A DNA stretch of 64,000 bases from Streptomyces sp. B21-105 (lineage in GTDB: Bacteria; Actinomycetota; Actinomycetes; Streptomycetales; Streptomycetaceae), in the NCBI RefSeq assembly GCF_036898465.1, contig NZ_JARUMJ010000001.1, forward strand, positions 4,526,001 to 4,590,000, written 5' to 3'. Shown here one piece after another: positions 37,086 to 62,827 of the stretch; position 1 is the first letter of the stretch; each line of letters starts with the position of its first letter. The notes below the pieces were generated by a model that was given only the letters and a program-made list of their open reading frames with translations, was not told where the DNA came from and ran no database searches. Made by a program: the position numbers and the translations under genes.

Positions 37086-37431
37086 CACCCGCAACGCTAG
37101 GCCCCGGCACCGACAGCGCGGTGACGGCCGTGCGCCCGCGCCCGGCGAGCCGGCACCCGACACACCCCGGATGACCTTCCCGGGCCCACGGATCCCGTAC
37201 CCGCATCCCCCATTCCGACCGCGGGCGCACCCCCGGCGGCTTGCCCCACCCGGCGAGATGCAGCCCCCAGGTGACCAGCGCGGCCAATCCGAGGACGACA
37301 CCGCCGACGACCAGCGCGGGCACCGAGCCGACGCACACACCGACGCCCGCCGCGGAGCCCCCGACGGCCACGATCGCCACGCCGGTCCATCCGGCGATCG
37401 TGTGCCCCTCGTCGTATCCATGCCCGGCCAT
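37003..37431 (-). CDS. Small membrane protein, HGxxPAAW-like family
   Basis: 142 residues from the ATG encoding MAGHGYDEGHTIAGWTGVAI. Two membrane helices (about 12-35 and 38-60; VAIVAVGGSAAGVGVCVGSV, LVVGGVVLGLAALVTWGLHL) and a short cytoplasmic part, GWGKPPGVRPRSEWGMRVRD, PGCVGCRLAGRGR. The HG...GHT.AGW start is the family mark. Coding signal becomes weak after about residue 105, where the frame overlaps the start of the DUF2797 gene, so the natural stop may have been lost and the tail may be spurious read-through. A divergent MarR gene lies upstream. Confidence 0.65.
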   Translation of the reverse strand: MAGHGYDEGHTIAGWTGVAIVAVGGSAAGVGVCVGSVPALVVGGVVLGLAALVTWGLHLAGWGKPPGVRPRSEWGMRVRDPWAREGHPGCVGCRLAGRGRTAVTALSVPGPSVAGDGTGMEVCGAAVVGGGGPRADLGRGPS

Positions 37432-37469
37432 GAATCCCTCACTATCTAAGAAGTTCATACTGGAAACCT

Positions 37470-37482
37470 CTTACAAGGTAAG
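37470..37482. promoter_or_regulatory. CTTAC-AAG-GTAAG inverted repeat in a divergent promoter
   Basis: Exact 5-bp arms with a 3-base spacer, between the small membrane protein gene (minus) and the MarR gene (plus), 39 bases before the former. Plausible operator for the adjacent MarR protein. Confidence 0.45.
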
Positions 37483-37615
37483 ACAAACCGAAAGCGGATA
37501 ACAAGGACCCAGCACGAACCCGTCCCCGTCCCACGAGCCACCGCCCCCGCAGCTCACGCAGCTCCCTCAGCCGAGCTCACGCACTCGAACGCCCCGGAGA
37601 GGAACCGGCCCCGCG

Positions 37616-56639: not shown

Positions 56640-56707
56640 GACCGCACTCCTTCCAGGACCGGGACGGGAGAGGCGTGAGGAGACTGATTGCCGAAGACAG
56701 AAGGATT

Positions 56708-56724
56708 TCTGACTGTCCGTCAGA
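56708..56724. promoter_or_regulatory. Palindrome TCTGAC-N5-GTCAGA before the ChsH2-like gene
   Basis: Exact 6-bp arms, 69 bases upstream of the operon start and 143 bases before the divergent Prim-Pol gene. The CTGAC-N-GTCAG pattern suits TetR-type regulators of acyl-CoA metabolism. It does not resemble the KstR box. Confidence 0.65.
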
Positions 56725-56866
56725 TGACGACCTCTGTCAAGCCTTCGCCAAGCCTTCACCAAGGTCACCGACGCCTCGCATCCCGCCCCGCACCGCACCG
56801 CCGCAGACCCCCCGCGCCACCGGCCATCCCCTTCCCCATTTCGAACATATGTACGACAATAGAGGT

Positions 56867-57796
56867 ATGGCCACCACCGACCGGTTCCCCCGGCAGGCCA
56901 CCACGCTGGCCCTCGCCCATGCCCTGTCGGCCGCCGAACGCGGCCTGGCCGTCATCCCCCTGTCCCGGACCAAGCTCCCGGCCCTGCGCTCCCCCCACCG
57001 GGCCGAACACCACGACGACCCCCGCGACGCCCCCACTGCCTCCGCCACCCCCGCCGCCCCGCCCTGCCACGGCGAATGCGGCCGCCCCGGCCACGGCGTG
57101 TACGACGCCACCACCGACCCCGCCCGCATTCGCGCGCTCTTCGCCGCCGCCCCCTGGGCCACCGGATACGGCATCGCCTGCGGCCTGCCCCCGCACCACC
57201 TCATCGGCGTCGACCTGGACACCAAGTCCGGCACGGACTCCTCATCGGCCTTGCGCGAACTGGCCCTGCGGCACCTCTTCACGATCCCGCCGACGGTCGT
57301 CGTCCTCACGCCGTCCGGCGGACGGCACCTCTGGCTCACCGGCCCGCCGGACGTCGTCGTCCCCAACTCGGCCGGCCGGCTCGCCCCCGGCATCGACATC
57401 CGCGGCGCCGGCGGCTACCTGGTCGGCCCCGGATCCCGCACCGCCCACGGCGTCTACGCCGCCGACCCCGGCAGCGCCCACCTCCCGCCGGCGCCCTGTC
57501 CGCCCTCCCTGCTGCGGCTGCTGGTCCCACCGCCGCGCCCCGCCCGCCCGGGACGGCAGCCTTCGGCGGGCGGTGCGCACGGCCGGGGCCTGATCCAGTT
57601 CGTCCTGGCCGCGCACGAGGGTCAGCGCAACACCCGGCTGTTCTGGGCGGCCTGCCGGGCCCACGAGAACGGCATCGCAGCGGAACTGACCGAGGACCTG
57701 ATCACCGCGGCCGTCCACACCGGCCTGACGGCCCGCGAGGCCCGGGAAACGATCGCGTCAGCCGCCCGAATGACGGCCCACCGCCCAGCTTCGTGA
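56867..57796 (+). CDS. Stand-alone bifunctional DNA primase/polymerase (Prim-Pol domain)
   Basis: 309 residues; ATG with GAGG just upstream. Prim-Pol (AEP) domain about 10-215: LAHALSAAERGLAVIPLSRT, Cys-containing insert CHGECGRPGHGVYDATTDPA, the metal-binding LIGVDLDTKSGTDSSS (DxD), then VVVLTPSGGRHLWLTGP (sxH-like basic site) and IDIRGAGGYLVGPGS. The C terminus (about 235-309) is a small helical primase-associated domain. No helicase part, unlike plasmid Rep proteins, and no replication genes nearby. These orphan actinobacterial Prim-Pols may serve repair or be relics of mobile elements. Confidence 0.85.
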   Translation: MATTDRFPRQATTLALAHALSAAERGLAVIPLSRTKLPALRSPHRAEHHDDPRDAPTASATPAAPPCHGECGRPGHGVYDATTDPARIRALFAAAPWATGYGIACGLPPHHLIGVDLDTKSGTDSSSALRELALRHLFTIPPTVVVLTPSGGRHLWLTGPPDVVVPNSAGRLAPGIDIRGAGGYLVGPGSRTAHGVYAADPGSAHLPPAPCPPSLLRLLVPPPRPARPGRQPSAGGAHGRGLIQFVLAAHEGQRNTRLFWAACRAHENGIAAELTEDLITAAVHTGLTAREARETIASAARMTAHRPAS

Positions 57797-58866: not shown

Positions 58867-58902
58867 ACGGCCCCCGACCGTATTTCCTGGTCGGGGGCCG
58901 TT
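58867..58902 (-). terminator. Terminator downstream of tRNA-Ser(TGA)
   Basis: ACGGCCCCCGACC / GGTCGGGGGCCGT, a 13-bp stem with a 9-base loop, 7 bases beyond the tRNA 3' end on the minus strand. Confidence 0.88.
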
Positions 58903-58908
58903 TCGCTG

Positions 58909-58995
58909 CGGTGGGTGTGGGATTTGAACCCACGGTGACATCGCTGCCACGACGGTTTTCAAGACCGTTCCCTTAGGCCGCTCGGGCAACCCACC
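58909..58995 (-). tRNA. tRNA-Ser(TGA)
   Basis: Minus strand: acceptor GGTGGGT/ACCCACC. Anticodon stem ACGGT/ACCGT around loop CTTGAAA gives TGA. Long variable arm; T arm GTGGGTTCAAATCCCAC. About 87 bases; CCA not encoded. Confidence 0.95.
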
Positions 58996-59800
58996 TACGC
59001 CCCGGCCCACCTGGGGCGGAGCGGGTACAGAGTACCCGGCGCGGGCGGTGCTCGGGGGGCGTGGTCCACACGGGGTCCACTGGCTCTGTCCACACCCGTG
59101 CCCAATGCGCCGATCACCAGCACCCGGCCCCCGCGTCACCCAGCCGACGCGAGCAAGCCTGGGGGCTGCGCTGACCTTGTTTGCATCCCCAGAACGTCCG
59201 TGTCTACCGAGTTACGACTTTGCTACTGATTCATGGTGGCTCGCCCCGCTCCGCGCCCGCGGAGCGGCCCCCGGTCGACCTGCGCTCAGGTCTCCGCCCC
59301 GCTCCAGCCCGGCCGGCGTCCGGGCCGCACGTTCAGCAATCGGCCGCCTGACGCTGGAGAAGGGATATGCCGTGGCTGGGGCTGTCGGCTCCAAGGCCCT
59401 ACGCACCCACTTGGCGCGAGCCTCGAAGATCACGGCACCAGCGTCGTGCTCACCTGACAGGCCCACAGGCTCCCAACGCGCCGGAGGCTTAAGGGGCCTG
59501 ATCACTCCCGCCAAAGCAGCTCCAGCCCAAGCCGCTACGCCGGCCTTGCTCGCACTCACGGCAGCCGTGCTCGTTCGCCCCTGAGCCGATACCACCTACT
59601 CCGAACGGGAAAGGGCCGAACCCGGAACGGCCTGTCTGAGCCGGTCGGTTCGGCTTTGATCCGGCCGACGCCCGGGCCTCCCGAGACCAAGCCGATGGCT
59701 CGGAATCAAGCACCGACACCACCAGCAGGGTGAAAAAACGCACCCCCTTACCCCCTTCAGCCTCTTATCTTCATGTACTTTCATACGCTTATTGCTAGTT
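58996..59800. other. 800-bp region without a convincing gene
   Basis: Frames are open on both strands (for example 59212-59595 minus; 59048-59584 plus), but none has a ribosome site, known motif or consistent codon bias. The minus-strand frame ARTPAGLERGGDLSAGRPGA resembles peptides often annotated in other Streptomyces from repeated sequence, so this may be a non-coding repeated segment. It becomes AT-richer from about 59750. Confidence 0.5.
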
Positions 59801-59812
59801 TTCGATTGGTAA

Positions 59813-59827
59813 GTGATGTTTCATCAC
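59813..59827. promoter_or_regulatory. GTGATG-TTT-CATCAC palindrome in an AT-rich promoter region
   Basis: Exact 6-bp arms in the AT-rich leader region, 160 bases before the ice-binding/collagen gene. Candidate operator; no regulator gene adjacent. Confidence 0.5.
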
Positions 59828-59987
59828 CCCATCTCCAAGCACTCGCGCCGCGGACCTCTATTCACGGCTACGGCCGCAGAACCTCGACACGAGACACGAC
59901 TTCTGGCCTGACCGGAACTCACTAGGAGAGCTCGGAATCCCTTTGCCGGGGCGACTGAGCTCAACGGCGACAAGAAAGGTCACCCCC

Positions 59988-61487
59988 ATGGCAGTGGTTG
60001 CCAACTCGTCCCGTTCGCCAGGCAAAATCCGTATAATCCATCGCCTCAAGACACGTCTTGCACTCTTGCCGGGTGTAGCGCTGCTGGCCACGGCCACGGT
60101 CGCGCTCACTTCAGGCGTAGCGCAGGCCGCAGAAGCCCCCGTCGAACTGGGGACGGCCAAGAGTTACGCGGTCCTGGCCGGTTCCACGATCACCAACACC
60201 GGCCCCACCGTCATCAACGGTGACGTGGGACTGAGTCCTGGCTCTTCGGTGACGGGCTTCTCATCCTCGACGCCCTCCGGCCCCGGGCAGATCTTCGGCG
60301 ATCTGCACGTGGCCGACGCCGAGGCCGCTCAGGCGAAGACGGATCTGACCACCGCCTACAACGATGCGGCTGGCCGAGGCCCTGGAGCCGCTGTTACAGC
60401 CGATCTCGGCGGACAGGTACTGGTCCCCGGCGTCTACACGGCCTCGTCGTCAATGGGACTCACCGGAGCCCTCACCCTCAACGCCAAGGGTGATCCCAAC
60501 GCCGTCTTCATCTTCCAGGCCGGATCGACACTGACCACCGCTTCGGCCAGCAGCGTCATCCTCGTCAACGGTGCACAGCCCTGCAACGTGTTCTGGAAGG
60601 TGGGCAGCTCCGCTACTCTCGGGACCAATTCCACCTTCGTGGGCACCATCATGGCCGACCAGTCGATCACGGTAACAACCGGCGCCAAGATCCAGGGCCG
60701 TGCCCTTGCGAGAATCGGCGCGGTAACGCTGGACGACAACGTCATCACAACGCCGATCTGCGCGACTGGCCCCACCGGCCCCACTGGGCCCGCCGGACCC
60801 GCCGGACCCGCCGGACCCGCCGGACCCGCCGGGCCTGCCGGGCCTGCCGGGCCTGCCGGGCCTGCCGGGCCTGCCGGACCCACGGGAGACACCGGCCCTG
60901 CCGGACCCGCCGGACCCGCCGGACCCGCCGGACCCAAGGGCGACACCGGACCTGCCGGACCTCAAGGTCCTGAAGGGTCCCAGGGACCCGCCGGACCTGC
61001 CGGACCCACGGGAGACACCGGACCTGCCGGACCTGCCGGACCCAAGGGCGACACCGGACCTGCCGGACCCACGGGAGACACCGGCCCTGCCGGACCTCAA
61101 GGTCCTGAAGGGTCCCAGGGACCCGCCGGACCTGCCGGACCCACGGGAGACACCGGACCTACCGGACCTGCCGGACCCAAGGGCGACACCGGACCCGCCG
61201 GACCTCAAGGCCCCAAGGGTCCCAAGGGGGACACCGGCCCGGTCGGACCTAAGGGCCCTAAGGGTCCCAAGGGGGACACCGGCCCGGTCGGACCTAAAGG
61301 ACCTAAAGGACCTAAAGGACCCCAGGGTCCTGCGGGACCTGGCGGTGAAGGTGATCACGGGCACCACGGCGACCACGGCCACCACGGCGACCACGGGCCC
61401 AACTGCCAAGAGCACCAAGGCAAACAGCCCTGGTGGCACGACGGGAAGCGCGTGTCGCTGACATCCCCGGCGGCGTGCAGGGACTAA
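59988..61487 (+). CDS. Secreted DUF3494 (ice-binding-like) protein with collagen-like Gly-X-Y tail
   Basis: 499 residues from the ATG at 59988 (AAAGG upstream). Signal peptide about 1-47 ending [12 protein letters not shown]3494 domain about 50-258: [74 protein letters not shown]. About 60 Gly-X-Y triplets follow (about 260-450), mostly GPAGPAG and GPKGDTG, with charge increasing toward the C terminus. A His/Asp-rich segment ([16 protein letters not shown]) and a short end with Cys ([17 protein letters not shown]) close the protein. No LPxTG. Probably a triple-helical extracellular adhesin or matrix protein. The His repeats could bind metal. Own promoter and terminator. Confidence 0.85.
60770..61340 (+). 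repeat. Tandem DNA repeats coding the collagen-like tract
   Basis: Nine-base units (GCCGGACCC, GCCGGGCCT, CCTAAAGGA) and longer blocks such as the duplicated segment [20 protein letters not shown] (coded near 60958-61015 and again near 61096-61150) show recent slippage or recombination growth. Length is expected to differ between strains and may be misassembled. Confidence 0.9.
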
Positions 61488-61530
61488 GCGAAACCTCGTC
61501 TGCATCTCCTTGAGGCGAAGGGATATACGA

Positions 61531-61563
61531 GTAAGGGGCGTCTTCTCCGAAGGCGCCCCTTAC
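61531..61563 (+). terminator. Terminator of the ice-binding/collagen gene
   Basis: GTAAGGGGCG / CGCCCCTTAC stem, extended by a GTCTTC/GAAGGC-like inner pairing, 44 bases past the stop codon. Likely intrinsic or bidirectional terminator. Confidence 0.8.
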
Positions 61564-61720
61564 TGACGTTCACGAGCCAATCTGCCGGCTGTTCGTGCAG
61601 AGAACAGGCGATATGGCAGTGACCAGCCAACTTCCAGCGGCCGTCTGGAGCCCCGAACTCCCCAAGCGCATGTTCCCTCATGTGCTCCATGCCTACATCA
61701 GAGGAATCCCCAACTGAGCA

Positions 61721-62011
61721 ATGCTCAACGATCAGAAGACCGGTCGCGCGGTGGCTGGTGAAGAGCTGTCAGAGAGCCTTGCCCGCTTCGTGGTCGTCCA
61801 CAACGGGCTGTCCCCGAGCGCGCCGAGCGGATCGCGGATCAGGCGGTCGGCGTTCCTCGCCACGGCGGCTACCGCAACCGTGCCCATGGTTCCGTCCGAC
61901 GACGTCGATCTCGGCCTTCACGCGCTCATCCTGCACACGAAGGAATACGCCGGACCGTGCGAGCGGTACGCGGGCCGCGCATCACCACCATGCCGGTGGA
62001 GGCGGCCGTGA
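61721..62011 (+). pseudogene. Degraded glycine-rich-domain (GRDP-like) gene fragment
   Basis: The segment SDDVDLGLHALILHTKEYAG, then PCERYAGR, matches the VDxxWHxFIL.T.EYAxFCxRVAGRFIHH signature of bacterial glycine-rich-domain proteins. It has lost key residues (Trp to Leu) and shifts frame after AGR: the neighbouring frame continues ITTMPVEAAV, corresponding to the FIHHxP end. Preceding residues (ESLARFVVVHNGLSPS) fit the same family start. Not functional as written. Confidence 0.5.
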
Positions 62012-62037
62012 CCCGGAGAAGGTCTCCGCCTCGGCTC

Positions 62038-62214
62038 ATGCCCACGACTCAGCGCTTGGTCGTCAACCGTCGAGGTTCCACGGTGTGGGAGGTGGAGAGC
62101 GGCCGGGGCCACTTCGCGGTGAAGCTTGGCTGTCCGATCGAGGCGACTGCTGAGTGGACCGCCCAGCCGTGGACTGCGCTCGCGCCCGCACGGGAGGGCG
62201 CTGTCCTGCAGTGA
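62038..62214 (+). pseudogene. N-terminal fragment of a kinase-like protein
   Basis: Encodes MPTTQRLVVNRRGSTVWEVE, then SGRGHFAVKLGCPIEATAEW and ALAPAREGAVLQ, followed by a stop. The VWEV.SGRG.FAVKLG stretch is a nucleotide-binding strand pair with the invariant-type Lys (VAVK-like) of protein or antibiotic kinases. The rest of the domain is absent. Together with the preceding fragment it is the residue of a decayed locus. Confidence 0.45.
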
Positions 62215-62320
62215 CGGAACGTATTCCGACTGCACGCGCGCGGGCGGTGTTCGGGGGGCGTGGTCCGCGGCAGCGGAAATGCCTCGACAAAGCCTGGGGC
62301 CGGCCGGGATGCTCGGCGCG

Positions 62321-62827
62321 ATGACGAGAACAGACGACATGCCTGCCGCGTGGGACGAGCGCACCCAGCTCACCACCTTCCTCGACTACGCCCGCGACAC
62401 CGCTCGCGCCAAGTGCGAGGACCTGTCCGATGCGGATGCCCGCAAGGCGCCCCTGCCGGGGTCGCCGCTGATGACTGCGAGCGGCCTGATCAGCCACCTG
62501 CGCTGGGTCGAGTACTACTGGTTCCGGGTGGTGTTCCTCGGCGAGGAGGACGAGGGGCCGTGGACCGACGAGGATCCCGACCGCGAGATGCGCATCGCCG
62601 TGGACCTCCCGCTCGCGCGGTTGCTCGAGGAGTACGCCGAGAACGCCGAGCAGCACCGCACACTGGTCGCCCGGCACGACCTCGACGTCCGGGCTCAGCG
62701 GGCGACGCGCGACGGCCGTCATGTGGACCTGCGCTGGATCCTTCTGCACCTGCTCGAGGAGACGGCCCGGCACAACGGCCACCTCGATGTGCTGCGCGAA
62801 CTGATCGACGGCAGGACGGGCGTCTAA
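62321..62827 (+). CDS. DinB-family (DUF664) protein
   Basis: 168 residues from the ATG encoding MTRTDDMPAAWDERTQLTTF. Four-helix DinB bundle: FLDYARDTARAKCEDLSDAD, TASGLISHLRWVEYYWFRVV (first metal His), VDLRWILLHLLEETARHNGH, LDVLRELIDGRTGV. Metal-binding His residues sit in SHLRWVE and in ARHNGHLD, as in mycothiol- or bacillithiol-dependent transferases. Streptomyces use mycothiol, so a thiol-S-transferase role in detoxification is plausible. Single gene. Confidence 0.88.
   Translation: MTRTDDMPAAWDERTQLTTFLDYARDTARAKCEDLSDADARKAPLPGSPLMTASGLISHLRWVEYYWFRVVFLGEEDEGPWTDEDPDREMRIAVDLPLARLLEEYAENAEQHRTLVARHDLDVRAQRATRDGRHVDLRWILLHLLEETARHNGHLDVLRELIDGRTGV

Follow-up and report, generated by a model that had tools for sequence, protein, structure and literature searches.

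The window, that is, the whole stretch of 64 000 nucleotides of Streptomyces sp. B21-105 DNA that was analysed, holds a gene whose product joins an ice-binding-type head of the DUF3494 family to a collagen-like tract and a His-rich, Cys-bearing end. The question raised by this locus is what kind of protein this is, what its end stands for and how the gene travels. The analysis points to a real, recurring kind of protein with a plausible trimeric design and a presumed function.

Gene, protein layout and head domain

The coding sequence was placed by frame call and Pfam match (Table 1); the open-frame listing gives the same frame, begun at an upstream TTG. From the N-terminus, the protein consists of a Sec-type signal, a DUF3494/PF11999 head, a Gly-X-Y tract, a GDHGHH stretch and a two-Cys end. 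A secreted DUF3494 head followed by a collagen tract and a His/Cys end, with the sortase signal absent, had been described in the initial annotation, and Pfam, hydropathy and a motif pattern agreed with this. The signal-peptide cleavage site (AQA|AEAP) was placed by eye, and an RR pair is absent from the first 45 residues. The head is the single PF11999 match at E ≤ 0.001 in this genome.

Table 1. Positions in the window of the gene, its parts and the flanking elements
Feature	Position	Strand	Basis
Left copy of 29-bp direct repeat, 5' side of tRNA-Ser(UGA)	59039..59067	+	Repeat search
Upstream region travelling with the gene	59630..59987	+	Alignment of 10 clade members (mean column identity 82%)
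Presumed promoter, AT-rich (39% GC), with conserved TATTGCTA-like core	59755..59830	+	GC scan, alignment
Palindrome GTGATG-TTT-CATCAC (GTGATGTTTCATCAC)	59813..59827	.	Perfect in 4/10 aligned upstream regions
Gene, 499 aa	59988..61487	+	ATG start, frame call and Pfam; SD-like AAGAAAGG before ATG
Sec-type signal peptide, AQA/AEAP cleavage	59988..60128	+	Hydropathy peak, residues 24–42
DUF3494 ice-binding-type head, residues 48–258	60129..60761	+	Pfam, alignment to 6eio, AF2 model, Foldseek
Collagen-like tract, 65 Gly-X-Y triplets without break, residues 261–455	60768..61352	+	Pfam, triplet count
Two 135-bp repeat units within collagen tract, 96.3% identical	60919..61188	+	Sequence self-comparison
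His/Gly/Asp-rich stretch	61353..61403	+	Residue composition, relatives
C-terminal end, Cys473 to Asp499, with Cys473 and Cys497	61404..61484	+	Protein sequence, relatives
Terminator-like stem-loop	61531..61563	+	z −6.7 against shuffles; similar inverted repeats after the gene in relatives
Right copy of 29-bp direct repeat	62238..62266	+	Repeat search

PF11999 was matched over residues 62–254 (E 1.7e-69; 234.1 bits against a curated cut-off of 28.7), and the cut-off of NF045625 (IBP_CFB ice-binding protein) was not reached (104.5 against 400). Structure prediction, which the initial annotation had proposed as a check, was run on the head with AlphaFold2 from a 61-sequence alignment and returned the fold of ice-binding proteins, a beta-solenoid with a long helix as in solved DUF3494 members, at pLDDT 95. 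Searched against the PDB with Foldseek, the model gave 31 matches at E ≤ 0.001, each entitled ice-binding or antifreeze protein, the best being 6eio (TM 0.93, 48% identity, E 5.6e-20). Four Ser/Thr-bearing strand stretches were compared with 6eio by a by-eye count on the sequence alignment, in which 17 of 24 residues are identical (STLTT 5/5, SSATLGT 5/7, SITVTT 4/6 and AVTLDD 3/6); these strands are the presumed ice-binding face, as read from the repeat. Values of dN/dS for the head were 0.10–0.35 in six comparisons with the window and 0.51 between two relatives (G128 and G267), and by these ratios the head is under purifying selection.

The head might no longer serve for ice and instead be an adhesive domain for another polymer or a mineral, which would make the protein a Streptomyces matrix adhesin. 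Streptomyces are known mainly from temperate soil, which was counted in favour of this alternative. Also in its favour is a Bacillus protein with an ice-binding-like fold, described as collagen-binding in the available text of PMC9210967. However, the presumed ice-binding strands are largely kept, as counted above, and in the available text of PMC8286594 PF11999 is counted as an adhesive domain that binds ice, not hosts or other bacteria. We regard this alternative as rather unlikely.

Relatives and distribution

PF11999 was found in 72 of 295 Streptomyces genomes (about a quarter), and loci were taken for all listed matches in the genus (n = 87). Their tails were classed as collagen in 23 and non-collagen in 60; one locus (L085) was dropped from the collagen class, its 11 triplets lying within another repeat type. 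The 87 genus loci were joined with loci of named relatives, a head match being present in 149 loci, and a tree was built from 127 heads (124 of the 149 loci and three database proteins; partial heads and the most distant loci were left out).

The window's protein falls in a clade of 12, all collagen-tailed, with SH-aLRT 98 (12 rows) and 99 in a second tree (11 rows). This clade is present in 7 of the 295 genus genomes (G000, G013, G087, G128, G226, G253 and G267), and its named members are those of S. europaeiscabiei, S. lacrimifluminis, S. fructofermentans (partial), Streptomyces sp. LBL (cut by a contig end) and NBC_00620, and an S. phaeochromogenes protein. A second clade of 20, again all collagen-tailed, has SH-aLRT 99. 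Thirteen of its ends were labelled sortase-type, five other, and two carry a Cys end (L040 and P0094). Among the 13, a strict pattern found a clear LAxTG in eight (L027, L035, L066, L101, L102, L105, L107 and L129, from Streptomyces and Kitasatospora), and the remaining five have a degenerate motif on a hydrophobic/basic end (L026, L045, L046, L051 and L053). Outside the two clades, on a long branch of its own, is one more collagen protein labelled sortase-type (L073). A single origin of the two collagen clades is compatible with the data (p-AU 0.716, 62 rows); the free tree does not settle their relation.

The architecture had at first been noted as one not known from a described Streptomyces protein; its uniqueness was not supported, given close orthologues in the 7 genomes, a related head-and-collagen clade that is often sortase-ended, and the combination PF11999 with PF01391 tabulated in the available text of PMC9957290. 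Both Pfam domains occur together in 4 of the 120 matches listed for a search with the head, and in 5 of the 120 listed for residues 190–330, where the matches are mostly plain collagens. One clade-bearing genome (G128) has a second DUF3494 gene (L087), which was matched as three pieces in different frames.

Collagen-like tract

PF01391 was matched at residues 261–319 (101.9 bits against a cut-off of 27.2), within a long, unbroken, Pro-rich Gly-X-Y tract as in bacterial collagen-like proteins. Position X is Pro in 82% of the 65 triplets, and five KG[DE] pairs are present. The tract had been noticed from the start with about 60 triplets; its presence stands, and the count is corrected to 65. Likewise, the internal duplication noted in the repeats was recovered as the 135-bp units of Table 1; since G013 and G226 show the same duplicated protein pattern, the duplication is not peculiar to this strain.

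One unbroken Gly-X-Y run of 44–72 triplets lies between head and His stretch in all 10 clade members examined. Compared with the window, 7–51 of 86–124 X/Y positions differ (nine comparisons), and the net charge ranges from +4 to −38. No Gly changes appear in these pairwise counts by construction, the triplets having been aligned in Gly register; it is the unbroken runs that count as evidence. Because all 10 members keep such a run while X and Y residues drift, a trimeric, multi-headed protein fits, and the collagen stalk probably bundles three heads together.

The tract could also be a flexible repeat spacer without triple helix, on a monomeric protein like its sisters with TGTTTG or GDAAT repeats. 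Other Gly/Thr repeats do occupy the same place in most DUF3494 tails of the genus (60 of 87 loci are non-collagen), and the repeat number changes easily. Set against this are the 10 of 10 unbroken runs of the clade; the breaks in the run of two second-clade proteins (L005 and L007) were entered on the same side. We give a monomeric spacer very little credence.

The His-rich, Cys-bearing end

A pattern search found no LPxTG-like motif, the protein ending in ...SPAACRD, and no hydrophobic segment is present at the C-terminus, the peak 19-residue mean past residue 60 being 1.26 and lying inside the head. The protein hence lacks the LPxTG-type C-terminal signal by which a sortase-anchored fibrillar adhesin is recognized. 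The model of the tail is poor (pLDDT 60).

The two-Cys end is homologous and in frame in nine of the 11 clade members with a complete end (the window, G013, G226, G128, G267, NBC_00620, S. europaeiscabiei, P0014 and P0072), three of which (G267, NBC_00620 and P0014) are near-copies. The two exceptions are G253, which is out of frame yet has two Cys there, and L097, which is cut short; L140/L086 and L096 run off contig ends and are outside the 11. Tail dN/dS was 0.27–1.7 on very few sites, and as far as such values go, the tail is loosely constrained.

End composition was counted for 136 of the 149 loci, the 13 dropped being partial heads, tails of fewer than 60 residues and two loci cut by contig ends. 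Within Streptomycetaceae, a His content of 5% or more over the last 120 residues was found in 9/9 proteins with collagen and Cys end, 13/14 labelled sortase-type, 3/6 other collagen and 71/78 non-collagen proteins, as against 3/29 in other taxa; the median His content of the heads is 1%. By these counts the His-rich end is general to DUF3494 proteins of Streptomycetaceae, with collagen or without: most of them bear a C-terminal His-rich stretch, whatever their stalk. Two or more Cys among the final 120 residues were found in 9/9, 0/14, 0/6 and 18/78 of the same classes and in 13/29 in other taxa. Given the 18/78 and 13/29, the class with collagen and Cys end is not alone in having a Cys pair near the end.

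When the tail was searched for as a module on other proteins, none of 22 candidates reached E ≤ 10, a weak result, known orthologues having been missed by the same search. Cross-linking by lysyl oxidase was considered and rejected: PF01186 is absent from this genome and present in 90 of 295 genus genomes, including two of the seven with the window's clade (G128 and G267), so that there is no sign of a link between lysyl oxidase and this clade. In the available text of PMC4448552, collagen-like sequences and lysyl oxidases are reported for Streptomyces and cross-linking is thought unlikely.

These ends bear on whether the protein is tethered at all. Attachment to a surface is a guess, because no anchor was seen in the protein, and this same finding, together with the uniformly ice-binding or antifreeze titles of the 31 Foldseek matches, speaks for a free, secreted, multivalent ice-recrystallization inhibitor or antifreeze, in which collagen would only raise avidity and the Cys end only lock the trimer, with no tether. 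The kin clade with the same head and collagen nevertheless has sortase-type ends in 13 of 20 members, which points to surface use in kin. We regard a freely secreted inhibitor or antifreeze of this kind as rather unlikely.

Chromosomal site and mobility

The gene sits in a 3.9-kb insert beside tRNA-Ser. The htrA-like gene of the window, named by eye from its sequence, was searched in 61 genomes; these include 36 other genomes of the genus, of which 12 were compared. tRNA-Ser(UGA) is present in all 12, and nine lack the insert, which leaves an empty site as for an element at a tRNA gene: from the tRNA-flank match to the htrA-like match the gap is 5–95 bp in these nine and 1.0–1.7 kb in three, against 3.9 kb here.

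A 3.2-kb segment that holds the gene (59039–62266) is bounded by the 29-bp direct repeat. The two copies of the repeat differ by one mismatch, and a search of the genome that allowed 3 mismatches returned these two alone. In G013 the repeat is degenerate, and neither the 12 relatives nor L090–L092 yielded a copy within 5 errors, which weakens the case for an attachment site. The ORFs tested in the insert did not include an integrase: four further ORF readings lacked a Pfam match at E ≤ 0.1, and the one other gene recognized there is mycothiol-S-transferase-like (62321–62827; PF04978, E 1.7e-42). It lies past the right repeat, ahead of the htrA-like gene, and its stretch is mostly without match at this place in G226. 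A Prim-Pol (PF09250) gene lies at 56675–57796, near the variable tRNA-Ser site, and its distance to the tRNA varies widely among relatives.

The wider neighbourhood is common to the window, G013 and G226. The neighbourhoods in G128, G253 and G267 are unrelated, only the gene, its upstream region and the terminator region being held in common with the window. In G226 (L089), the tRNA-side sequence occurs a second time ahead of the gene, together with part of the tRNA gene and some 2 kb away from the intact tRNA, as would result if elements had piled up at the tRNA-Ser site. The copies of the gene at other places in G267 and NBC_00620 are surrounded by an 85–89-bp direct repeat (76% and 87%), which holds terminator-like sequence and may be unrelated. 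No match was obtained in a phage collection searched for phage origin. DUF3494 heads were found on 38 plasmid records, 15 of them from Streptomyces, with 17 at 60–80% identity to the window's head, 21 lower and none above 80%.

Upstream and downstream regions

Beyond the upstream region of Table 1 the flanks differ in G128, G253 and G267. The SD-like AAGAAAGG ahead of the ATG is invariant in 10 of 10 aligned clade members, and a core CTTAT...TATGT...TTAT...TATTGCTA is largely kept over 10 relatives; no match to the sigma-70 consensus was found in the presumed promoter stretch. Upstream distances to the window (0.06–0.32) resemble head dS (0.08–0.38), so the region is not shown to be more conserved than synonymous sites.

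This stretch had been singled out as differing from the rest of the window by its AT-rich promoter and a palindrome. The low GC holds (39% against 71.8% for the window) and is one of two such 76-bp dips; the sole other stretch as AT-rich lies at 37429–37505. The palindrome is real, but it is not a conserved operator, being perfect only in the window, G013, G226 and L097. A regulon was rejected, since GTGATGNNNCATCAC occurs at one place only in the 9.2-Mb genome. A BldD operator was rejected as well: the box TNAC(N)5GTNA, as given in the available text of PMC4151990, is not matched, the half-sites of GTGATGTTTCATCAC running the opposite way.

Within 58900–61700 only the tRNA reached an Rfam gathering score in the search for an RNA element in the leader. 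When the upstream region was folded as a consensus, the covariation term came out slightly unfavourable (+0.48); 6 of 63 pairs differ at both positions. Downstream, a simple terminator scan that requires a T run found none, while the stem-loop at 61531–61563 folds far better than its shuffles.

Proposed mode of action

As a whole, we lean, by a small measure of confidence, towards a fibre of three chains and three heads that binds ice or another surface, has no wall anchor and is spread as a small unit. The protein, exported by Sec, would trimerize by way of its collagen tract and so form a rod with three heads at the N-terminal side, built like ice-binding proteins, and the heads would bind a regular surface, either ice or another crystalline or ordered one. 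The His-rich/Cys end may register or lock the trimer, presumably by disulphides, and/or hold the fibre to the cell surface or matrix, possibly through metal, and would stand where some members of the related clade have a sortase-type end. The gene would move as a small monocistronic unit.

More speculative, and in our estimation unlikely, is an extension in which these proteins form a swappable Streptomyces kit: an ice-binding-type head on a collagen rod, ending either in a sortase anchor or in a knot that is rich in His and locked by disulphides. The knot would nucleate the triple helix from the C-terminus and, on the hyphal surface, bind metal or polyanion; as a one-gene cassette, the kit would spread to sites such as a tRNA flank without a recombinase of its own. 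If true, the kit would parallel, in bacteria, C-propeptide-nucleated collagen, with a head that binds ice or mineral. The three-headed fibre would likewise be a compact natural design for multivalent binding of ice or crystals.

Comparison with known systems

The literature was searched by titles and abstract beginnings, with few subscription journals covered. Within it, no published description of a Streptomyces DUF3494-collagen protein was found, nor a role described for the DUF3494 proteins of the genus, though 72 of 295 sampled genomes carry them; the split between sortase-ended and Cys/His-ended proteins, the His-rich ends of Streptomycetaceae in general and a spread in the manner of a cassette were not seen there either. 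A tail-containing eCIS fibre was considered and set aside, the available text of PMC12923769 concerning other domains. Further background literature comprised the available text of PMC5014055 and PMC7374567.

The domain pair itself is already known: in the available text of PMC9957290, pfam11999_pfam01391 is tabulated as cell adhesion among ice-binding proteins of the central Arctic Ocean. These have the same Pfam pair in the same order as the window's protein; they are metagenomic and marine, and that text does not contain the His/Cys end, the sortase-type branch or the cassette.

For single parts, other systems come close. The head fold is held in common with 6eio, an ice-binding protein from an Antarctic consortium, at the identity and TM given above; unlike the window's protein, the solved chain (237 residues) is nearly all head and has no collagen tract. 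We take 6eio to be EfcIBP. SclA, SclB and Lcl have a Gly-X-Y tract like the window's, and their best-scoring stretches lie in its collagen part, at scores far short of the NCBIfam cut-offs (92.3 against 400, 133.4 against 325 and 135.4 against 500 bits, respectively). The globular part of these proteins differs from DUF3494.

The sortase-ended collagen DUF3494 proteins of Streptomyces and Kitasatospora, as classified in this analysis (e.g. L035, L102 and L129), have head, collagen tract and His-rich stretch as in the window, with heads 63–72% identical to the window's in the 9 of 20 second-clade members aligned. They differ in bearing a LAxTG-type signal at the end and, unlike the window's protein, in having two Cys in the last 120 residues in none of 14 cases. 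With head and collagen in common and the ends different, these relatives offer a direct test of what trimerization by collagen and wall anchoring each contribute to DUF3494 function.
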